Assembly: GCA_900318075.1 (NCBI GenBank)
Contig: ONJI01000013.1
Span: 1 to 47,816, forward strand
Length of the DNA: 47,816 nucleotides
From: an uncultured Bacillota bacterium
GTDB lineage: Bacteria; Bacillota_I; Bacilli_A; RF39; UBA660
Direction: 5' to 3'
Below are positions 6,670-33,040 of this stretch, piece after piece. Position 1 is the stretch's first letter. Every line of letters starts with the position of its first letter. The notes beneath the pieces are model-generated. The model saw only the letters and a program-made list of their open reading frames with translations, did no database searches and had not been told where the DNA came from. Position numbers and translations under genes: made by a program.

Positions 6670-6901
6670 TATAAATGGTTGTGGATTAAGAAAGAAGGTA
6701 TTAATTGTGTAAATCAAATGTACCTCTTTTTATTTATATGAAAATTTCCTTTGCTAAAAACTTTCTAACACAAACAATTATTCTTGTCAAAATAATTATA
6801 ATAAAGAATATATTTTAAAGAATATAAGAAATTATAAATCCATAATTTTTTTGGAAAAATAATATAAAAAAACCATTGGTAATCAATGGTTAAATACAAA
6901 A
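6670..6901. other. Intergenic region left of the integrated element
   Basis: I see no gene here. An imperfect hairpin around 6694-6733 (AAGGTA pairing with TACCT, then a T-run) may end transcription of the peptidase gene. The tRNA-Ala terminator that belongs to the opposite strand lies at 6866-6891. Confidence 0.5.
6866..6891 (-). terminator. Displaced original terminator of tRNA-Ala
   Basis: AACCATTG/CAATGGTT is a perfect 8-bp stem with a 5-nt loop, and the A-run at 6866-6872 gives a T-run on the minus strand. It lies just outside the left attachment repeat, exactly where the terminator of the minus-strand tRNA-Ala gene would stand before the element inserted. It now lies about 5 kb from that tRNA. 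Confidence 0.75.
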
Positions 6902-6919
6902 ATGGTGGAGAATAAGGGA
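6902..6919. repeat. attL: attL: 18-bp direct repeat of the tRNA-Ala 3' end
   Basis: ATGGTGGAGAATAAGGGA is identical to 11949-11966, the last bases of the minus-strand tRNA-Ala gene including its CCA. With the integrase gene next to the other copy, it marks the left end of a site-specific integration. Confidence 0.9.
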
Positions 6920-7050
6920 GAAAACATCTTCTATCTATAAATTGCTAATTCCTTATTTTTAAAGCCTTTTCAGACTATTAAATAATAGTTTAATCGCTAA
7001 AAAAGTACTTAAAATCTTCTTATTTGAGAACAAAATAAGGAGGAAATAAA

Positions 7051-7710
7051 ATGCCAGTATTTAAAATTAATCATCAAACAGGATATACTGTAATGAGTAA
7101 CTATCATTTAAGAGATAAAAACTTATCATATAAAGCAAAAGGATTATTATCTTTCATGTTAAGCCTTCCAAAAGACTGGGATTATTCAGTAAATGGACTC
7201 GTTAAACTTAGTAAAGAAGGATTGAAAGCAGTTAGAAGTATGTTAAAAGAACTAGAAGAAAACAATTATCTTATTAGAGAAAAAGTAAGAGATGAATATG
7301 GAAAATTTGACTATGAATATAACATATATGAAATGCCATATAGCCATTTTGGGCATACGGATAAAGGGAATGCCGAAAAAGACACACAAATAAATACTAA
7401 TAAACAAAATACTAATTACAAAGATAAAAATGATAAACCTGGTCCATTAGTAAGTGAACTTATAAATAATAACTTCATAAGTAGTTCAGACTTAAATATA
7501 CCATATTACAATGACATACTTGATAACGCTTTAGAAGAGTACAAATACTACGATGTAATAAGGGTATTAAATTATATAATAAATAAATGGAAAGAAAGCA
7601 ACGGATATGATGAAAATGGAAATAAAATTATAAACAAATATGGATACTTCAAATCAGCTTTAATAAACAATTTAAGAAAAATTAATACTGAAGTTGAATT
7701 AGATTATTAA
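7051..7710 (+). CDS. Replication-initiator-like helix-turn-helix protein of the element
   Basis: The 219-aa protein opens with MPVFKINHQTGYTVMSNYHLRD followed by SYKAKGLLSFMLSLPKDWDYS and a winged-helix region (SVNGLVKLSKEGLKAVRSMLKELEE split over ~50-72). This arrangement is common in DnaD-like replisome organisers of phages and conjugative elements of Firmicutes. The middle (~115-135) is polar linker, and the C-terminal ~80 residues form a second helical domain. AAGGAGG lies 6 nt before the ATG. It is the first gene inside the left end. It probably supports replication of the excised circle, which is inferred from the family. Confidence 0.7.
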   Translation: MPVFKINHQTGYTVMSNYHLRDKNLSYKAKGLLSFMLSLPKDWDYSVNGLVKLSKEGLKAVRSMLKELEENNYLIREKVRDEYGKFDYEYNIYEMPYSHFGHTDKGNAEKDTQINTNKQNTNYKDKNDKPGPLVSELINNNFISSSDLNIPYYNDILDNALEEYKYYDVIRVLNYIINKWKESNGYDENGNKIINKYGYFKSALINNLRKINTEVELDY

Positions 7711-7743
7711 AAAATGATATATTTTAAAAAAAGCTTGTTAATT

Positions 7744-7773
7744 AAAACACGTTTCAATTATGGAACGTGTTTT
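7744..7773. terminator. Bidirectional terminator between convergent genes
   Basis: AAAACACGTT and AACGTGTTTT form a perfect 10-bp stem with a 10-nt loop. It lies between the convergent initiator gene and the helicase fragment. Confidence 0.8.
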
Positions 7774-8479
7774 AAATGTCTAAGTTCAAAGGTAATTTCT
7801 GCTTATAAGTGATAACTAAATTGTGTAATGCACGAGTCATTGCAACATATAATAATTTCATATCTAAAATATTATCTTCATCGTAATTTATATTACTAGC
7901 ATCGTATATAATTACACCATCAAATTCTAATCCCTTACACAAATAGCACGGCATGATGCATATTCCATCTGAATATTCTTGGACTTTATCTGTAATACAT
8001 TTAATATCAAATACATCTTTTAAAAAAGTATTTAGTTCAATAGCTTGTTTACTGTTTTTAGTTATTATAGCAATATTGTGATTTTCTTTTTTGATTAAGT
8101 TTTGAAGTAATAATATAATATCACTATTTTGTTTAATTTTTTCGTATAAAACTTTATCGCCATGTCTAATTACTGCATCAGCTTGTAACAAATTTAGATG
8201 TTTATTTATTTTATTAGCTTCATTCATTATTTCTATTGTTGTACGGTAGCTTTTATTAAGATTTTTAATTTCAGCGTTTTTAAATATATATTTTTTAATA
8301 CTGTCCCAATTATCTAAACTTCTGTATGAATAAATTGATTGAGCAATATCCCCATAGATGCTAAAGCTAGATTTAGATAGAATTTTTTTTAATACATAAA
8401 ATGTAAAATCATTATAATCTTGTGCTTCATCAATTACGACATGTTTATATGATGAAAAATTTTTAAAAAATGCAGACAA
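7772..8479 (-). pseudogene. Truncated superfamily-1 helicase (UvrD/HelD-like), C-terminal part
   Basis: The 235 residues contain helicase motif II HVVIDEAQDYNDF (~13), motif III YGDIAQSIYSYRS (~39), motif V-like LCKGLEFDGVIIYD (~180) and motif VI LLYVAMTRALHNLVITY (~210). Motif I (Walker A) and the whole N-terminal half are missing. The reading frame continues upstream of the TTG at 8479 for about 25 more codons and then meets a TGA, with no Walker A. Without motif I it cannot hydrolyse ATP, so it is most likely the remnant of a full-length helicase gene cut during element rearrangement. The DYNDFTFYVLKK context resembles HelD as much as UvrD. Confidence 0.75.
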
Positions 8480-8504
8480 AGAACAATTATATTTATTTTT
8501 TAAT

Positions 8505-8696
8505 ATGCTAAATAAAATTACCCCTGAGTTAATAACTGAAATTATTAATCAAATGGAATATGAAAATAATTGCGTGTTACCTGAAGATTTTAAATTAGCA
8601 TTATTTAAGGGATTTGCATTTAATAAATGGCAAATAGAAGAATGTTATAGAAGAATTAATAAGGATAGGACGAAAGCTTTATGCAAAAAAAATTAA
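8505..8696 (+). CDS. Hypothetical 63-aa protein
   Basis: I do not recognise this short protein. It is helical and charged, with LPEDFKLALFKGFAFNKWQIEECYRRINKD as its most structured part. Its end overlaps the kinase gene by 16 nt, as in translationally coupled pairs. There is no clear ribosome site before ATG 8505, and its 5' end lies antisense to the decayed upstream part of the helicase remnant. It may be the tail of an older gene rather than an intact one. Confidence 0.4.
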   Translation: MLNKITPELITEIINQMEYENNCVLPEDFKLALFKGFAFNKWQIEECYRRINKDRTKALCKKN

Positions 8697-9265
8697 TATT
8701 TATAAGTGGAACAATAGGATCTGGTAAAACTACTTTATCAAAGAAAATAATTAATACTATACCTAATTCTATTATGTTAGATGGCGATTGGTGTTTTCAG
8801 CAAGGATGTGATTGGCATTTTGATGAAACTACTAAACAAATGGCTATAAAAAATATAATATATGTTTTAAACAATTTTTTAGAAAACCCTAATTTTGAAA
8901 CAGTTATATTTTGCTGGACATTACATAGACAGGCCATGATGAATCAAATATACAATTCTTTGAATATGAATAATGTTAGTTTTTATCATTTTAGATTATT
9001 ATGTTCTGATGAAGTTTTAAAAGAAAGAATTACTAAACGATTTTTTGATAGAAGAAGTGAACTTGGTATAGAGTATAATGAAAAAGATATTGAAAATATG
9101 TTATTGGGTTCTATAAAAAAGAAATCTCTTTATGTTGAGGATGGTTCTATTGTACTTGATGGAGATGCTAATTTAGAACAACTTAGTGAGGAAATAATTG
9201 AAACAATATCACAGTCAGATAAAATTAAAGTAAAGACTGTTGATAGAAATCAAAAAAAAGTGTAA
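8681..9265 (+). CDS. P-loop nucleotide/small-molecule kinase-like protein
   Basis: The 194-aa protein begins with a Walker A loop FISGTIGSGKTTLSK (~7-20). It has a DGDWCFQQ segment (~36) where substrate-binding Asp is found in related kinases, a hydrophobic VIFCWTLHRQ strand (~78), and a lid with closely spaced Arg residues (KERITKRFFDRRSE, ~115). This is the layout of the AAA_18/AAA_33-type small kinases. The substrate cannot be told. It lies 21 nt before the Nudix gene and is probably co-transcribed with it. As element cargo it may act in nucleotide metabolism or in defence against other elements; neither is shown. Confidence 0.65.
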   Translation: MQKKLIFISGTIGSGKTTLSKKIINTIPNSIMLDGDWCFQQGCDWHFDETTKQMAIKNIIYVLNNFLENPNFETVIFCWTLHRQAMMNQIYNSLNMNNVSFYHFRLLCSDEVLKERITKRFFDRRSELGIEYNEKDIENMLLGSIKKKSLYVEDGSIVLDGDANLEQLSEEIIETISQSDKIKVKTVDRNQKKV

Positions 9266-9286
9266 AATTATACTAGAGGTGATTAT

Positions 9287-9751
9287 GTGACGATAACTAT
9301 GATTGATGAAGATAGTCGTTTTGGGTGTCGTTCTGGAGCAATTATATTTAATGAAGATAAAACTAAAATTCTTCTTGAAAATCAAGATAATGGACGTTAT
9401 ATGTTTCCTGGTGGAAGAATTGATGTTCTTGAAGATAGTAATACAGCAATTACTAGAGAGTTAGAAGAAGAATTAAATTTAAAAATAGATTTAAAATTAA
9501 AGTATATTCTAGAAATGTTTTTAAATTTACCTAAGAAGAAATATCATGAAATCGGATTTTATTATTTAGCTAATATAGATGAAAAAAAAGTTACAAATAA
9601 AACTAAGTCATTAGACGGAGATGGAATTTTTGAATGGATTTCTATAGAAAAATTAAAAGATTATAAAATTTTAGCTAAACCTTTAAAAGATATCATATGT
9701 AAAAAAATTGAAAATGATGGTTTAGAACATATAGTATATAGAGAATATTAA
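9287..9751 (+). CDS. Nudix hydrolase
   Basis: The 154-aa protein contains the Nudix box GGRIDVLEDSNTAITRELEEELNL (~44-67; key residues G, E, R-E-L-E-E-E), which binds divalent metal and cleaves nucleoside diphosphates linked to another group. The N-terminal CRSGAIIFNEDKTKILLENQ strand is typical of the fold, and the C-terminal YEYL-type tail is short. GTG 9287 follows GAGGTG at a good distance. It is the last gene of the kinase pair and ends at a strong terminator. The substrate is unknown; ADP-ribose-like or nucleoside-triphosphate substrates are possible. Confidence 0.85.
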   Translation: MTITMIDEDSRFGCRSGAIIFNEDKTKILLENQDNGRYMFPGGRIDVLEDSNTAITRELEEELNLKIDLKLKYILEMFLNLPKKKYHEIGFYYLANIDEKKVTNKTKSLDGDGIFEWISIEKLKDYKILAKPLKDIICKKIENDGLEHIVYREY

Positions 9752-9765
9752 TGAAACAAATTTTT

Positions 9766-9798
9766 AAAAAGAGGAAAAAATAATTTTCCTCTTTTTAG
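9766..9798 (+). terminator. Terminator after the Nudix gene
   Basis: AAAAAGAGGAAAA and TTTTCCTCTTTTT form a perfect 13-bp stem with a 5-nt loop, with T residues at its end. Confidence 0.85.
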
Positions 9799-9805
9799 TA
9801 TAAAA

Positions 9806-9867
9806 TTCGCGAAATATGTAAAGGGTATGGGATATTTCCCATATATAGAATTTGTATATACAAATTC
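9806..9867. repeat. Cluster of palindromes between convergent genes
   Basis: Three palindromes lie within about 60 bp: TTCGCGAA (near 9807), ATGGGA-TATT-TCCCAT (9827-9842) and the perfect 20-bp GAATTTGTATATACAAATTC (9848-9867). The Nudix gene already has its terminator, so these are extra. They may be sites for a dimeric protein, a replication or transfer origin, or the terminator of the minus-strand repressor. Confidence 0.5.
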
Positions 9868-9880
9868 AGTGCTGGCTATC

Positions 9881-10381
9881 CTATTTCCTTTTCAATATAG
9901 ATTCGTATTTTTTCTCTATGTTAGTTAATAATCTAACAATAACATCAGCCTTTTTTAATAGTTTTTCATCTATGTCAGGCTGTTTTTTTAAATAATTATG
10001 TATATCATTAAAATATTCCTTAGTATCAGCTGCTATGTGTCTCTTTTGATCTATAAAAAACATCATCATTTTTTCTTCTTCTCTTTTTTCCTGAACAAAC
10101 TTATCGTACATTTCATATGAAACAATTATATTTTCCATTCCATATTTTATTGTCTCGTCCGCATAGCCGACCATTTTAGCCGTTTTTTTAAAAGGTAAAT
10201 CCAAATATTTTTCAAAACCTTTTAAAGTTAAAAGAGAAGGCTTAATCCTAAGTCCTTTTTCAATATTATTTATTTCAGTGTGGCTAACATCACATAAATC
10301 AGCAAGCTTTCTCGCTGATAATCCCTTTTTCTTTCGTGCTTGTTTAATTAAGCTACCTAAATCTTCTTTTCTATTCATCAT
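9881..10381 (-). CDS. XRE-family transcriptional repressor of the element
   Basis: The 166-aa protein has an N-terminal lambda-repressor-type helix-turn-helix (LGSLIKQARKKKGLSARKLADLCDVSHTEINNIEKGL split over ~8-45), then a helical C-terminal part rich in Lys and Glu, probably for dimerisation. There is no peptidase domain, so it is not a self-cleaving CI/ImmR partner by itself. It is divergent from the excisionase and integrase genes, and two related inverted repeats lie in the shared promoter region. It probably keeps excision and integration genes off. The start ATG at 10381 is the first of MMN; the second ATG is equally possible. Confidence 0.82.
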   Translation of the reverse strand: MMNRKEDLGSLIKQARKKKGLSARKLADLCDVSHTEINNIEKGLRIKPSLLTLKGFEKYLDLPFKKTAKMVGYADETIKYGMENIIVSYEMYDKFVQEKREEEKMMMFFIDQKRHIAADTKEYFNDIHNYLKKQPDIDEKLLKKADVIVRLLTNIEKKYESILKRK

Positions 10382-10442
10382 TTAAGGCCACTTCCTATCA
10401 CACTTAAATTATACCACATTTTCTCTTTTTTTAATATTTTTT

Positions 10443-10458
10443 TGGAAACTAGTTGACA
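10443..10458. promoter_or_regulatory. Repressor operator 1, overlapping the -35 box
   Basis: TGGAAACTAGTTGACA is a near-copy of the 16-bp site at 10488-10503 (pattern TGGAAA-4-TTTCCA). Its right half contains the TTGACA -35 element of the excisionase promoter, so bound repressor would block polymerase. Confidence 0.7.
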
Positions 10459-10481
10459 AAAATAAATTAAAATGATAAATT
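10453..10481 (+). promoter_or_regulatory. Promoter of the excisionase-integrase operon
   Basis: TTGACA at 10453-10458 and TAAATT at 10476-10481 are spaced by 17 nt. The promoter lies between the two operators. Confidence 0.65.
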
Positions 10482-10487
10482 GAATTA

Positions 10488-10503
10488 TGGAAAGTAGTTT
10501 CCA
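10488..10503. promoter_or_regulatory. Repressor operator 2
   Basis: TGGAAAGTAGTTTCCA has perfect 6-bp arms around a 4-nt centre. Its centre lies 45 bp from that of operator 1, about four helical turns, and it is just downstream of the -10 box. Confidence 0.7.
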
Positions 10504-10524
10504 AAAAACAGAAAGGAGGGTATT

Positions 10525-10809
10525 ATGTCATATACCGAACTATTTAAAATTATATCAACTCCATGGGCTAGTATTAATGATATTATGAAAATTGCTGGCT
10601 GTGGAAAAGATAGTGCAAGAAAGATAAGAGATTCAATAATTCATATAATAAAAGAAGAAAAAAAGGATATACCTTATAGTAAGAAAAAAGTAATACCAAC
10701 CAAAAGAGTTATTGAATACTTAGATCTAGACATCGAATACGTTAAAGACATGGCTATGAAAGAATATGAACTTAAACGTATGAAGGAAAAAACTAATGTC
10801 AGTTACTAA
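10525..10809 (+). CDS. DUF3173-like excisionase
   Basis: This 94-aa basic protein has a small helix-turn-helix-like part (SINDIMKIAGCGKDSARKIRD, ~17-37) and a C-terminal VIPTKRVIEYLDLD segment, matching DUF3173 proteins that precede tyrosine integrases in Firmicute elements and act as directionality factors. Its stop overlaps the integrase start by 14 nt. AAAGGAGGG precedes ATG 10525. It probably bends attachment sites to favour excision; that role is inferred from position and family. Confidence 0.75.
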   Translation: MSYTELFKIISTPWASINDIMKIAGCGKDSARKIRDSIIHIIKEEKKDIPYSKKKVIPTKRVIEYLDLDIEYVKDMAMKEYELKRMKEKTNVSY

Positions 10810-11878
10810 AGATAAAAGAACAAATTTATGGAAATTTAGAACTTATATAACAGATAGTCTAGGAAATAGAAAACAACATCAAAGAAGTGGCTTTAAAACA
10901 AAAAAAGAAGCCCTAAAAGCAGAGCAGAACTTTATAAAAGAGCATGCAAACTCCTGTGATATGACCTTTGGTGAGCTTTGGAACATCTACGAAAAACATA
11001 TAAAACTTAAACTAAAGTATAATTCATATAGAACAATAAAAAATAGAATAGAAACCCATGCCTTACCATATTTTAAGGACTACAAATTAAGTAAAATAGA
11101 CTCCTGTACATATACAAACTGGCAAGCAGAATTAGAAGATGCAGGATATAGCTATAAATATAAAAGCTCTTTGCATGGAGCAATTAGAACTATGCTTAAT
11201 TATGGGATTAAATTTTATGGACTTAAAAATAATATAGCAAGCTCAGTAGGAAACTTTTCAAAGAGAAATGAAATACCAAAAGAACATACAATTTGGACAC
11301 ATGAAGAATTTAAAAAATTTATAAATGTTGTGGATAATGATATGTATAAATTATTCTTTGAAACACTTTTTTACACAGGATTAAGATTAGGAGAATGTCT
11401 AGCCCTAAATTGGAATGATTTAAAAGGCAATTACATTATAGTAAATAAAACATTAACTAGAAATATAAAAAACGGTAAAAAGACCGTTAATAGCCCAAAA
11501 ACAGCAACCTCATACCGTAAGGTAAAAATTAGTAACTATCTATTAAATAGATTAAAAGAATATAAGGAAAAATGCCATAAATACGTTGAATTTGAAAATG
11601 GTTGGTATATATTTGGAAATATAAATCCACTTTCTACAACAACAGTAGAAAGAAAAAAGAATAAGTATTGTAAACTAGCACAAGTAAAGCAAATAAAAAT
11701 ACATGACTTTAGGCACAGTCATGCATCTCAGCTTCTATCATCAGGTGTTCCTATAACAGCAATTTCACAAAGATTAGGACACTCTGATATAGAAATGACA
11801 CTCAATACTTATTCACATATGTTACAAACAGATGAGGACAAAGTAATAGACGTCCTCGACAATTTAAATTATGAATAA
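10796..11878 (+). CDS. int: Tyrosine recombinase / integrase
   Basis: The 360-aa protein has an N-terminal arm-binding part (KFRTYITDSLGNRKQHQRSG), a core-binding helical domain (~55-160) and a catalytic domain with Arg in TGLRLGECLAL (~196), HDFRHSHAS (~303, the H-x-x-R pair), GHSDIEMTLNTYSH (~330-343) and its nucleophilic Tyr (~340). All catalytic residues appear intact. It lies at the right end, 71 nt from the tRNA-Ala copy of the attachment repeat, the usual position for a tRNA-targeting integrase. It would recombine attL and attR to release the element. Confidence 0.95.
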   Translation: MSVTKDKRTNLWKFRTYITDSLGNRKQHQRSGFKTKKEALKAEQNFIKEHANSCDMTFGELWNIYEKHIKLKLKYNSYRTIKNRIETHALPYFKDYKLSKIDSCTYTNWQAELEDAGYSYKYKSSLHGAIRTMLNYGIKFYGLKNNIASSVGNFSKRNEIPKEHTIWTHEEFKKFINVVDNDMYKLFFETLFYTGLRLGECLALNWNDLKGNYIIVNKTLTRNIKNGKKTVNSPKTATSYRKVKISNYLLNRLKEYKEKCHKYVEFENGWYIFGNINPLSTTTVERKKNKYCKLAQVKQIKIHDFRHSHASQLLSSGVPITAISQRLGHSDIEMTLNTYSHMLQTDEDKVIDVLDNLNYE

Positions 11879-11910
11879 GAATATTTTAAGAACTAAAACG
11901 AGTGTTTATA

Positions 11911-11936
11911 TAATTAAAACCTTGATAAACAAGGCT
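11911..11936 (-). terminator. Element-borne replacement terminator for tRNA-Ala
   Basis: CCTTG/CAAGG (11920-11924 and 11930-11934) flank a 5-nt loop. On the minus strand the stem is followed by TTTTAATTATA. It lies inside the element directly downstream of the minus-strand tRNA-Ala and seems to replace the terminator left behind at 6866-6891. The stem is short, so the call is moderate. Confidence 0.55.
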
Positions 11937-11948
11937 TAATTAACAATT

Positions 11949-11966
11949 ATGGTGGAGAATAAGGGA
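11949..11966. repeat. attR: attR: 18-bp direct repeat inside tRNA-Ala
   Basis: It is identical to 6902-6919. It covers the 3' CCA, discriminator and acceptor strand of tRNA-Ala on the minus strand, so the tRNA remains complete after integration. Confidence 0.9.
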
Positions 11967-12026
11967 CTCGAACCCTTGACCCCCTGCGTGCAAAGCAGGT
12001 GCTCTAGCCAACTGAGCTAATTCCCC
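11950..12026 (-). tRNA. tRNA-Ala (anticodon TGC)
   Basis: Read on the minus strand, the acceptor stem is GGGGAAT/ATTCTCC (one G-T pair), with discriminator A and an encoded CCA. The anticodon loop TTTGCAC gives TGC (complement of 11990-11992). Its 3' end is the integration site of the element at 6902-11966. A good promoter lies at 12046-12075. Confidence 0.96.
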
Positions 12027-12335: not shown

Positions 12336-13256
12336 ATGGATAATTTAAAGCTTATAAATGAAGTAAAAGAAAGTATGCCAGAAAGCATCGCTGCTATAGG
12401 ATATGGCTCAGGTATATTTAGACAAAATGGATATAGTGCTGATGAAATTCCTGATAAAGATATAATCTTAGTTGTCGATAATTTTAGACAATTTTTAATT
12501 GATGATTACAACATGAATCCAGGACATTTCTCACCAGATTTTGATAAAAGAGTACTTCAAGATAAAAAAGATAAGTATAATTATTATAAAAACCTAGGGT
12601 GCTTGAAATTTTATCATGATAATATTCACTATAAAGTAATGATTATATCAAATTCTGCTTTGGAATATGACTTAAAAACCTGGTCATATTTTGGCATGGC
12701 TGGTAGACTTACGAAACCGATCTTATATAATGATATACCTGAAAATTTAGAAAATTTAATTATTAAAAATAGACAAAATGCTTTAATAACTGCTCTACTT
12801 TATAATACCAATGACGAAATTCCTAAAGAACAATTATATAAGACAATATCCAAACTTACTTATATGTACGATTTTAGGACTATACTTCCAGGCGAGAAAA
12901 AAACAAAAGCAGATGACATTGTGAATGGAGCGCTAGCTAAATTTGATGAAAATTTTGCCGAAAGTCAAATAATAGTTATTAATAATGAAATTATTACAAA
13001 TCCCCATCCATTAGAACTTATCGATACCCTCCCAGCAAATCTTGCAAATTACTTACATGATGAATTAAAAATTGATAGTTCAAAAGAGCTTACTAAGGAG
13101 GACATAGAAAGGGTAAAGATAGCTATAGAAAAATATTTTAGAAAAACAAACTTCATAAATTCTATTAGACTTGCCATAAGCAGTAGTTCAACTCTTGGAA
13201 GAAAAGAAACTGTAAGACACGCAATTCAAAAGTTTAAAAAACACCTAAAAAAATAA
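12336..13256 (+). CDS. Tam41/Mmp37-type CDP-diacylglycerol synthase homologue
   Basis: The 306-aa protein matches the Tam41 family: GYGSGIFRQNGY (~22-33) as the nucleotidyltransferase GSG motif, a metal-binding DKDIILVVDNFRQF segment (~40-53), then NMNPGHFSPDF (~60) and YDLKTWSYFGMAGRLTKPI (~108-127). Mitochondrial Tam41 makes CDP-diacylglycerol from phosphatidate and CTP for cardiolipin. Unlike CdsA it is not a polytopic membrane enzyme, and no long hydrophobic segment is seen here. GGGGTGAT precedes the ATG. The homology is by motif reading. Whether it replaces or supplements CdsA in this genome cannot be seen in the window. Confidence 0.8.
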   Translation: MDNLKLINEVKESMPESIAAIGYGSGIFRQNGYSADEIPDKDIILVVDNFRQFLIDDYNMNPGHFSPDFDKRVLQDKKDKYNYYKNLGCLKFYHDNIHYKVMIISNSALEYDLKTWSYFGMAGRLTKPILYNDIPENLENLIIKNRQNALITALLYNTNDEIPKEQLYKTISKLTYMYDFRTILPGEKKTKADDIVNGALAKFDENFAESQIIVINNEIITNPHPLELIDTLPANLANYLHDELKIDSSKELTKEDIERVKIAIEKYFRKTNFINSIRLAISSSSTLGRKETVRHAIQKFKKHLKK

Positions 13257-26376: not shown

Positions 26377-26398
26377 GACTTCATTTGAAGTCTTATTT
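26371..26398. terminator. Bidirectional terminator
   Basis: AAATAAGACTTCA and TGAAGTCTTATTT form a perfect 13-bp stem with a 2-nt spacer, with A and T runs at both sides. It separates the convergent 420-aa gene and the downstream carboxypeptidase gene. Confidence 0.9.
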
Positions 26399-27475
26399 TT
26401 CTATGTAATACGCATAATACTCTTCTAAAGTTAAATCCTCATCATATATAATCTTTGCTGTCTCTTCGCCAACATAGCGATAGTGCCAAGGCTCATATTT
26501 ATAACCAGTAATATCTTCTTTACCTTTTGGAAACCTCAAAATAAAGCCATATTTATATGAGTTATCAGCAAGCCACTTGGCTTCCTTAGTATTCGCAAAA
26601 CTAGAATCAACCGTATTTATATCAGTACATAGACCAGTTTGATGTTCAGAATAACCTGGCCTAGCCGAATAAATATCAGCTTTTTTCTTGCCATCTCTTT
26701 TAACATACCTATCATACAAGTTTACTTGATATTCGTAACTCCTATAGGCCGAAGAATTCTTTAAAATAATATTGTCGAGCATAGCCCCATCAACCATTTT
26801 CATAAAAGCGTCAGCCGCATCCTTGCGCATCTTATTATTAGCGCCCTGATTATATTTAGAACTTAAAGTAACTAAGTCATCAGGTTCATAACTATCAGAC
26901 AAATGGTAAAATTTATTAACTAATACTAGGTTATCATCTTTTATATTAGTTTTCTCGGTTTCTGTATAAAACGCATAATCAGCTTTCGCATTTACTATGG
27001 CAATTACTTTTTTAGCCAAATAATCGTGACTATTACCATAATCTAAATAACGAGTTACATTTTTATGAATATAATATTTTTCTTTAACTAAACTCGCAAG
27101 TAACGAAGAAGCTGGATATTTTGTAAGGTCATACCCTGAATTTATAATCGCAATAATATCATCAACATTAGCTTTAGAATTATTATCATAGTATTCTAAA
27201 TACTTTTTGAAGTTTTCTTCCTTATAATCATTTGCTGTTATTAAGTCAACTAAAGATTTATTATATTTTTTTGAAATTAAATTATAATTATTCTTAGAAA
27301 CATTTTTCACTATAGCTTTCACCTCGTTAGAACTATAACCAAGATCAGAAAGTTTATCTTCTATATTAACGTTAGTTTTATTATTAATGAAAAATAAAAC
27401 CACTAAAACAAAACACACAAATATAAACATCAAAATAAAAGGTTTCTTTTTAAGCTTTCTCTTTTTCTTTCTCAT
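26393..27475 (-). CDS. VanY/DdlC-type D-alanyl-D-alanine carboxypeptidase (M15B), copy 1
   Basis: The 360-aa protein has a basic cytoplasmic start, a membrane anchor (FILMFIFVCFVLVVLFFI, ~13-30), a spacer of ~160 residues and an M15B domain. That domain has NSSAYRSYEYQVNLYDRYV (~240), SEHQTGLCTDI (~277, His and Asp zinc ligands) and EPWHYRYVG (~332, base Glu and His ligand). It trims terminal D-Ala from wall peptides outside the membrane. It is the second gene of a two-gene operon, 8 nt after a paralogue. Confidence 0.9.
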   Translation of the reverse strand: MRKKKRKLKKKPFILMFIFVCFVLVVLFFINNKTNVNIEDKLSDLGYSSNEVKAIVKNVSKNNYNLISKKYNKSLVDLITANDYKEENFKKYLEYYDNNSKANVDDIIAIINSGYDLTKYPASSLLASLVKEKYYIHKNVTRYLDYGNSHDYLAKKVIAIVNAKADYAFYTETEKTNIKDDNLVLVNKFYHLSDSYEPDDLVTLSSKYNQGANNKMRKDAADAFMKMVDGAMLDNIILKNSSAYRSYEYQVNLYDRYVKRDGKKKADIYSARPGYSEHQTGLCTDINTVDSSFANTKEAKWLADNSYKYGFILRFPKGKEDITGYKYEPWHYRYVGEETAKIIYDEDLTLEEYYAYYIEK

Positions 27476-27483
27476 ATAAATAC

Positions 27484-28428
27484 CTACTTATCTAAATAAT
27501 ATGCGTAATACTCATCAAAAGTGAGTTTACTATCAAAAACTTTTTTTGCAAGATCCTTGCCAACATAGCGATAGTGCCAAGATTCGTATTTATATCCTGT
27601 TAAATCTTCCTTATCTTTAGGATATCTTAGAATAAATCCATATTTATAACAATTATTTGAAAGCCATTTAAAAGCTTCTGTGCTTTCAAAATTGTTCATT
27701 CCAGCTCCTGGAGTAAAAATATCTAGGGCAAGACCCGTCTGATGTTCAGAAAAATTTGGCCTCGCTGCCACACTATCCGCATAAGCTTTTCCCTTTTTAT
27801 CTTCGTATTCATCATAGATTCTCTTTTGCGTTTCATAAGTTCTATAAGATGAATTTACAATTAAAGTTATATTTTCATCTTTGGCTGCTTTAGACATTTC
27901 TTTAAAAGCATCGTACACATCTTTCCTAATACTATTGTTGGCATAAGCATATAGATTGCTCATTTTGACAATGTCATCAGGTGCGTACTTGTCAGGAAGC
28001 GAATAATGTTTATTAACCAGTATAGAATATCCCTTATCCATATCAGTTACCACAGTATTCGAATAAGCTTCATGATTAGCCTTAGTATTTACAGTAGCTA
28101 CAACGTTTTCAAAATCCACTTGCGTATCTTTATATTTGCTTTTTATATACGAAATATAAATGTCATAATTGCTCCATATAAAATACTTTTGTCTAGTAAG
28201 AGAAATTAGATACTTATCATATTTGTCATTAAGAGCGTAATTAATAATTTTTTTATCGAGTTTTATAAGCTCACCAATTTCTTTTTCATTATAGCCTACC
28301 TTACCGAGCTTATATTCGGTACTTGTATAGTATCTATACAAATTAATAAAAACGATAGCTAAAATTATTGCTAAAATAGTAGATACTAAAATAATAATAG
28401 GACCTTTTTTTAATTTTCTTTTTTTCAT
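27484..28428 (-). CDS. VanY-type D-alanyl-D-alanine carboxypeptidase (M15B), copy 2
   Basis: The 314-aa paralogue of the next gene has a membrane anchor (GPIIILVSTILAIILAIVFI, ~9-28) and the M15B motifs NSSYRTYETQKRIYDEY (~190), SEHQTGLALDIF (~228) and ESWHYRYVG (~285). Catalytic residues are intact. ATG 28428 is chosen because GGTGG lies 7 nt before it; an ATG at 28476 would add a stretch with no membrane logic. The gene leads the operon. The spacer before the catalytic domain is shorter than in copy 1, which may set a different reach into the wall. Confidence 0.9.
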   Translation of the reverse strand: MKKRKLKKGPIIILVSTILAIILAIVFINLYRYYTSTEYKLGKVGYNEKEIGELIKLDKKIINYALNDKYDKYLISLTRQKYFIWSNYDIYISYIKSKYKDTQVDFENVVATVNTKANHEAYSNTVVTDMDKGYSILVNKHYSLPDKYAPDDIVKMSNLYAYANNSIRKDVYDAFKEMSKAAKDENITLIVNSSYRTYETQKRIYDEYEDKKGKAYADSVAARPNFSEHQTGLALDIFTPGAGMNNFESTEAFKWLSNNCYKYGFILRYPKDKEDLTGYKYESWHYRYVGKDLAKKVFDSKLTFDEYYAYYLDK

Positions 28429-28526
28429 ATGTTCCACCACCATCATTATATCACAAAAGACTTTACACATTGTCAAATAATGAAAGTCTTTGAAGAAAGA
28501 TACTTTTAAGTATTAAAGATAAATAG

Positions 28527-31920: not shown

Positions 31921-32089
31921 TGGTAAATATATAACATTTGCCAAAAATTAATATAAGATAATCTAATTTTATCAAAAATCATTATATAAAAAAGACAAAT
32001 TACTACCCTTTAAGAAGGTAAAATACCTAAAATGGGCATTTGAAATGGGAAATAAAGTGTGCTATGCTTTGCCTAAAGGAGGAAAATCT

Positions 32090-33040
32090 ATGGAAAAAAG
32101 CAACAAAAGAACCAAAATTTTAAAAAAAGGTGAAATAATTCCCATGACGTTTGATTATGTATTTACAGGTATATTCAATAATGAAAACAATATTGATATA
32201 GTAGAAAATTTTTTATCAGTATATTTTGATAAACCACTAAAGGAAATAAAAGGGCACGTAAAAATAAAATCAAGATATCTTGGTATAGATAATAAAAGAG
32301 AAAAAAATAAACAAGTAGATTTAATATTAGAGATAAACGGTAATAAAATAAATATAGAACTAAACAATAACTCATCAGAAGGTTTAAAGAATCGTAACGT
32401 CGTATATTAGAACAATATACATGGCAGGCAACTCAGATATAAAGATAACAACTATTCTAAAATAAAGAATACCATTCAAATAAATCTAAACAATTTTAGA
32501 TGTAATAAAAATAGAATAAAAGATGTGTATTATTATAGAAACAAAAGTGGAAAAATATTGACAAAAAAATCACGAATAGATTACATAGACCTTGTAAATG
32601 CAGAAGAAAAAAGATATAATGAGAGTGAAGAAAAGCTTGCCAGATGGTGTCGAGCATTAACATCAATAACAATTGATGAATTAAAAAAAGAATTGGGTGA
32701 TGATCTGATGGAAAAAGATACAAAAGAAAAGTTAGAGGAAGAGATGAACAAATATAGCTCTGATGATGAAGTTATTGCCTTATATTCCGCCTATTCAAGA
32801 GAAGAGTTAGAAAGAAATACTCTAATAGACGAAGCTAAAGAAGAAGCTACAAAGCAAGGCCTAGAACAAGGTATAAAGCAAGGTATAAAACAAGGTATAA
32901 AACAAGGTATAAAACAAGGCATAAAACAAGCAAAAGAAGAGGTAGTAAGAAACCTGTTAGATAAAAACATAGATATTACTTTGATTTCAGATGTCACCGG
33001 CTTAGAAGTAGATAAAATTGATAAAATGATAATTAATTAA
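32090..33040 (+). pseudogene. Rpn-family nuclease/transposase gene with one amber stop
   Basis: This is one open frame of 316 codons interrupted by a single in-frame TAG at 32408-32410 (codon 107). The frame continues through NNIHGRQLRYKDNNYSKIKN and NTIQINLNNFRCNKNRIKD to DVYYYRNK and a typical Rpn tail. The first part holds the PD-(D/E)XK core (KNKQVDLILEINGNKINIEL: D, E-x-N/K; ~77-95). The tail has five GIKQ-type repeats (~258-280) and ISDVTGLEVDKIDKM. AAAGGAGG precedes the ATG, and a perfect terminator follows. It is most likely a recently inactivated mobile gene; readthrough cannot be excluded. Confidence 0.85.

Follow-up and report, generated by a model that had tools for sequence, protein, structure and literature searches.

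The window, as we call the whole stretch of 47,816 nucleotides analysed here, is one contig (C26, ONJI01000013.1) of G000, a metagenome-assembled genome of an uncultured Bacillota bacterium (1.14 Mb in 71 contigs, 84.8% complete, 4% contamination) from a clade in which no cultured member was identified in this analysis. Positions 6,902 to 11,966 hold a compact integrative element at a tRNA-Ala gene, and within it lies a short block matching a site in an integrative and conjugative element (ICE) of the same genome, where that site stands upstream of the mobilisation genes. For many small islands that bear an integrase no means of moving is known; for this one we are able to give a concrete signature of a putative origin of transfer (oriT), together with a candidate helper in the same genome. 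The features of the locus, in window coordinates, are as follows (aa, amino acids; ORF, open reading frame; RDF, recombination directionality factor; att, attachment site):

6860..6901, minus strand: left flank beyond the element, which is the natural terminator region of tRNA-Ala when the site is empty; same sequence type behind tRNA-Ala in G017, G034, G004, G025 and G031
6902..6919, no strand: attL core (18 bp), identical to the attR core
7051..7710, plus strand: replication protein, HTH_36/DnaD-like (219 aa; PF13730 E 1e-6; PHROG 4707 replication initiation E 2e-21)
7772..8479, minus strand: HelD C-terminal fragment (235 aa; NF041464 E 1e-44)
8505..8696, plus strand: 63-aa ORF from the ORF list, cargo, with no convincing family match in profile searches
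8681..9265, plus strand: P-loop kinase-like protein (194 aa), cargo (PF13238 E 3e-11)
9287..9751, plus strand: NUDIX hydrolase (154 aa), cargo (PF00293 E 1e-9); close homologues common in the genus
9826..9879, plus strand: putative oriT, with a hairpin at 9826-9843, an inverted repeat at 9848-9867 and the core CAGTGCTGGCTA at 9867-9878
9881..10381, minus strand: HTH_3 repressor (166 aa; PF01381 E 3e-12)
10525..10809, plus strand: RDF/excisionase candidate (94 aa), found beside the integrase in relatives G014, G053, G036, G017, G048 and G265
10796..11878, plus strand: tyrosine integrase (360 aa), Arm-SAM-catalytic domains intact (PF14657, PF14659, PF00589 E 8e-27)
11908..11948, minus strand: element-borne replacement terminator for tRNA-Ala, a hairpin adjoining attR, common to the G003 element at the same site
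11949..11966, no strand: attR core (18 bp), within the tRNA 3' end, identical to the attL core
11950..12026, minus strand: tRNA-Ala(TGC), intact target gene (ARAGORN)

The gene calls agree with the initial annotation, which had placed an integrase next to the tRNA, an excisionase-like gene and a repressor gene in the same element, and an initiator-like gene at the far end. To these the present analysis adds the oriT-like block and the cargo, namely the HelD C-terminal fragment, the 63-aa ORF, the kinase and the NUDIX hydrolase. The integrase motifs TGLR, HDFRH, LGHSD and NTYSH are all present. The structure model of the RDF candidate is small and helical (pLDDT 88) with no significant PDB match, and that of the replication protein is of low confidence (pLDDT 70) with weak DnaD/DnaB-like matches; neither model decides the function. 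Searches of Pfam, PHROGs, NCBIfam and PADLOC recognised no relaxase, coupling protein, mating-pair formation or phage gene in the element, in keeping with the earlier view that relaxase and structural genes are absent. It lacks both the relaxase of its own expected of a canonical integrative and mobilizable element (IME) of the iMOB class and the complete transfer system expected of an ICE. Since its match covers only profile positions 544-765 of 779, the HelD ORF is a fragment and probably a pseudogene; full-length homologues in relatives are 699-711 aa long. The HelD fragment, kinase and NUDIX hydrolase match PADLOC only generically, and they were therefore treated as cargo and not as a defence system. 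In G041 (contig C6; L089 3254-8972) a full-length HelD gene has a kinase and a NUDIX gene close by; two other genes lie between, but the relative order is that of the element, which suggests uptake of this cargo as a cluster.

The identical 18-bp repeats proposed for the two ends were recovered as exact copies of ATGGTGGAGAATAAGGGA, spaced 5,047 bp apart, and around these cores 24 nt match at 92% with the same spacing. The right copy forms the 3' end of the intact tRNA-Ala(TGC), as had also been proposed. The repeat is not a product of chance, since recurrence of tRNA 17-mers within 10 kb was seen in 0 of 200 simulated sequences. A whole-genome search with the element as query found no second copy. 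The initial annotation had called the element, at about 5 kb, near the lower size limit, which is fair for the tyrosine-integrase type: the relaxase-less IMEs covered in a review (PMC5704250) measure 1.7-2 kb when they carry a DDE transposase and 18-42 kb when they carry an integrase.

An empty tRNA-Ala locus, which the initial annotation had suggested looking for, was observed in relatives. In G017, G034, G004 and G025 the tRNA-Ala end CTCCACCA is joined directly to TTTTTGTATTTAACC and a terminator hairpin, and in G031 the same end continues with TTTTTGTATCTAACC and a terminator hairpin. In the window, the minus strand outside attL reads CTCCACCA followed by TTTTTGTATTTAACCATTG..CAATGGTTTTT, which is this empty-site terminator type, 5 kb away from the tRNA. 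Since a tRNA terminator region lies outside attL, as it does behind the tRNA in five relatives, position 6901 was formerly joined to the tRNA end. The locus shows what is expected of a module for site-specific integration: att repeats here, and in relatives the site without an insert. In G035, the nearest relative judged by the flank (Tam41 85% aa), tRNA-Ala has no element. Tam41, ysxC and der genes are the neighbours of tRNA-Ala across the genus; the Tam41/Mmp37-type phosphatidate cytidylyltransferase gene of the window (12336-13256; PF09139 E 5e-32), of a family named after a mitochondrial enzyme, adjoins tRNA-Ala and is kept in much of the genus. An M14 peptidase was rejected as the conserved left neighbour since it does not adjoin tRNA-Ala in relatives, and for this reason the empty site was shown by way of the tRNA terminator.

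The oriT-like block lies between two convergent genes and is made up of a GGG..CCC hairpin, an inverted repeat (GAATTTGTA-TA-TACAAATTC) and the core. When the element was searched against the rest of the assembly, one other strong match of 33 bp was obtained, on contig C24; the last 32 bp of the block (9848-9879) are identical at 32/32 positions to G000:C24:3185-3216. The C24 site lies ~200 bp upstream of a nikA/mobC gene (PF21983 E 1e-16, PF05713), which is followed by a relaxase gene (PF03432 E 3e-42), virD4 (PF02534 E 1e-62) and VirB6- and VirB4-like genes, and the C24 element is a Tn1549/CD1115-type ICE. Its relaxase is the only PF03432 match in the assembly, and the composition of C24 fits the genome (GC content 0.273 vs 0.286, tetranucleotide correlation 0.986). 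Judged by sequence, the block of the element is related to the oriT-like site of its candidate helper. No description of this oriT was found in the papers searched; the block had no match in the plasmid collection, where the element gave weak HelD matches only. A resemblance to a ColE1-like nick motif was not confirmed in papers, and the oriT of PMC5090054 is that of a MobV-type IME, a different family; both were set aside.

Taking these observations together, we consider it likely that the element is a compact relaxase-less integrative mobilizable element, that is, a mobilizable genomic island (MGI) or 'iOriT', which by mimicry of its oriT would be mobilised by the resident C24 ICE, and that it probably travels by hitch-hiking on that conjugative element. 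Once the repressor is lifted, integrase and RDF would excise a circle of 5,047 bp, which the replication protein may help to copy. NikA/MobC and the MOBP-type relaxase of C24 would then bind the hairpin and inverted repeat and nick within CAGTGCTGGCTA, and the nicked strand would pass through the VirD4 protein and type IV secretion system of the ICE. In the recipient, the integrase would re-insert the element at the tRNA-Ala 3' end, with the element supplying a new terminator for the tRNA. The initial annotation had proposed a satellite or integrative element able to excise, perhaps to replicate, and dependent on a helper for transfer, with which all the findings agree; it had left open whether the helper was a phage or a conjugative element, and the evidence now favours conjugation.

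Related elements bear on the origin of the block. At the same tRNA-Ala, G003 (contig C19; L055) has a longer, decayed element with an initiator of 66% aa identity, a right end of 84% DNA identity and only a fragment of the integrase; a Fic-like gene is also present there. A complete MobV-encoding element, at a tRNA-Pro of G017 (contig C8), also matches the window element in the order of its RDF candidate, integrase and repressor genes, and partial MobV-encoding elements with the same initiator were found at G025:C6, G053:C47, G168:C1 and G235:C72. Their initiators are homologous to that of the window element (56-59% aa identity), but they differ from it in carrying a MobV relaxase of their own after the initiator and in having no CAGTGCTGGCTA core. 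Since the core was absent from all 23 other related-element loci tested, some of them with a MobV relaxase, the window element probably acquired it, and the simplest history would be that a compact element without the MobV module gained an oriT of the kind that the ICE has. If the element were instead what is left of a decayed MobV-encoding IME, no longer mobile and with the block as a leftover, this would account for the homologous elements that carry initiator and MobV relaxase, as well as for the truncated HelD. We regard this as unlikely, because integrase, RDF candidate, repressor and initiator are all open and the att cores are perfect, while the block resembles the site of the resident ICE and not a MobV oriT, and none of the tested MobV relatives has it.

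The assignment of the block as an oriT was made from its position, symmetry and conservation. In G004 the motif again lies upstream of nikA (69% aa) and a relaxase gene (68% aa). In G169, G265, G152 (two copies) and G125, where the family relaxases came from a protein search, the core CAGTGCT[GT]GC lies upstream of nikA on the opposite strand, and hairpins are mostly present at these cores with arms which differ yet pair (AAAAC/GTTTT, AATTC/GAATT, CATTTG/CAAATG). The inverted repeat of relatives often has a GGGA loop (GTAC-GGGA-GTAC), its arms varying in pairs. Cultured species are also represented: in three of four Tn1549/CD1115-type systems in PLSDB, those of Cohnella, Enterococcus faecium and Streptococcus agalactiae, a perfect hairpin with a TGCTTGCTAC core lies upstream of mobC, at a distance of 120-165 bp, and the fourth, from Monoglobus, lacks it. 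A hairpin stands in front of the core at 128 of 167 sites vs a background of 2.4%, many of the sites having been found with fixed outer arms, and a reversed-pattern control gave 0 matches in 44 and in 193 genomes. By these features the block is probably an oriT. That it is instead some other shared signal, for example a terminator or the binding site of an ICE regulator, appears quite improbable to us: its place between convergent genes is a common one for terminators, and its function is read from position only, but an ordinary terminator hairpin separate from the block already stands at ~9770-9792, and the core stays constant next to hairpin arms that vary without losing their pairing, upstream of nikA/mobC-relaxase genes in distant ICEs.

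The TA-loop form GAATTTGTATATACAAATTC (at most 1 mismatch) is restricted in the genus to the window element, the ICE of its own genome, the G004 ICE and copies at contig ends in G006 and G003. At the end of G003:C25, the start of G003:C27 and the end of G006:C28 the contigs break at or beside the motif, and the two G003 ends have the same sequence around it and probably overlap. These breaks suggest that the motif region behaves as an assembly repeat.

A phage satellite resembling the phage-inducible chromosomal islands (PICIs) would be excised on phage infection and packaged in helper phage capsids. An integrase, a small RDF, a divergent repressor and a replication protein within 5 kb do resemble minimal satellites, and the replication protein matches phage replication families. 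No packaging, capsid-remodelling, capsid-hijack or terminase gene was found, however, the kinase accounting for a weak hit on a terminase family through its P-loop; relatives of the integrase and initiator were not found in viral contigs, the element had no DNA match in phages, and the ICE-type oriT block would be left unexplained, so that this origin seems very unlikely. That the element encodes an unrecognised relaxase and borrows only the ICE channel is highly improbable, for although the 63-aa ORF and the 94-aa protein lack a convincing family match, both are too small for a known relaxase fold and all ORFs above 150 aa are assigned, none of them as a relaxase.

Several points weigh against mobilisation by the C24 ICE. 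Among 15 family relaxase loci (at least 40% identity) only some show the core in view, and it was not in view at other, mainly more distant relaxases. The oriT is putative, assigned from position, symmetry and conservation, and C24 could be misbinned, given an assembly of 71 contigs with 4% contamination. The HelD fragment shows that part of the cargo has decayed. Excision, nicking by the ICE relaxase, transfer and re-integration, as well as the role of the replication protein, are inferred from the DNA.

Mobilisation by the C24 ICE has parallels in known systems. MGIVflInd1 and similar MGIs of Vibrio mimic the oriT of helper ICEs of the SXT/R391 family (PMC5704250); they share with the window element a tyrosine integrase and RDF, the lack of conjugation proteins and an oriT related to that of the helper ICE, whereas they are 18-33 kb long, occur in Gammaproteobacteria and use a helper with a MobH relaxase, in contrast to 5 kb, Bacillota, a Tn1549/CD1115-type helper and a replication protein of its own. 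The iOriT class of IMEs (PMC11389934), integrative elements that have an oriT and lack genes for a relaxase or mating-pair formation, is a definition and not a described family, and the window element fits it by sequence. Staphylococcal plasmids with pWBG749-type oriT mimics (PMC8136818) are likewise relaxase-less and carry the oriT subtype of their helper, but they are plasmids with another helper family, while the window element is integrated at a tRNA. Tn1549/CD1115-type ICEs resemble the C24 helper in the mobC-relaxase-virD4 order and in having a related oriT-like site; they represent the conjugative helper and not the compact element of the window.

The oriT signature extends well beyond this genome. 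The pattern GAATTTN{4,16}AAATTCAGTGCTGGCTA was found in 17 of 193 family genomes (19 sites) and in 101 stretches of a public genome collection; viral contigs had none. All the matches listed came from assemblies with names such as Bacilli, Erysipelotrichaceae, Clostridia or Mollicutes, and ruminant or other guts were the source of many. A MOBP relaxase was seen at 6 of 82 examined sites and at none of the other 76, in a view that spanned 8 kb at most and was often cut short where the contig ended. At least some of the 76 are ICE pieces, as DUF3991/TOPRIM, which belongs to an ICE gene, is matched by four proteins encoded nearby. A small p120-type gene adjoins about half of the sites and a NikA-like gene 22 of them, and at 25 a serine recombinase is in view; the larger genes in these neighbourhoods encode methylases for cytosine and adenine, subunits of type I restriction systems, and Abi-like and OLD-like proteins. 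At one locus, L253, the end of a homologue of the window element's initiator overlaps with the pattern. The window element is probably one of a guild of such hitchers. We lean slightly towards this guild being large, with compact elements of unrelated integration modules (tyrosine integrases, and serine recombinases in two kinds of neighbourhood) having arrived by convergence at a single Tn1549/CD1115-type oriT family in uncultured Bacillota of the gut, often with restriction-modification or other defence genes, and depending on the few relaxase-encoding ICEs. A review of IMEs suspected that many small islands carry only an oriT (PMC5704250). Since the signature is searchable, with ~100 public-genome stretches mostly without a visible relaxase, this guess about 'immobile' islands becomes testable, and the defence genes near the sites suggest that such hitchers may carry anti-phage systems from one gut bacterium to another.

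Two arrangements recur around the motif. Among L182-L261 and L136-L155, where many elements that apparently lack a relaxase have the same oriT type, one such arrangement joins a serine recombinase gene, a ~120-aa gene, the oriT and a NikA-like gene, sometimes beside a tRNA-Gly. At L139, L141, L144, L146, L149, L150 and L103 (9378-9444) two small genes (~116-136 and 99-103 aa) stand beside the motif, whose other side is taken up by genes for restriction-modification or large P-loop proteins; in most cases there is an adjoining amidase-like ORF of ~100 aa, which may be the insertion target.

Elsewhere in the window, two further loci were judged by eye from their translations. Positions 26393-28476 hold two tandem paralogous genes resembling D-Ala-D-Ala carboxypeptidases of the VanY type, and at 32045-33040 two adjacent ORFs resemble a broken transposase gene of the Rpn/PD-(D/E)XK type.

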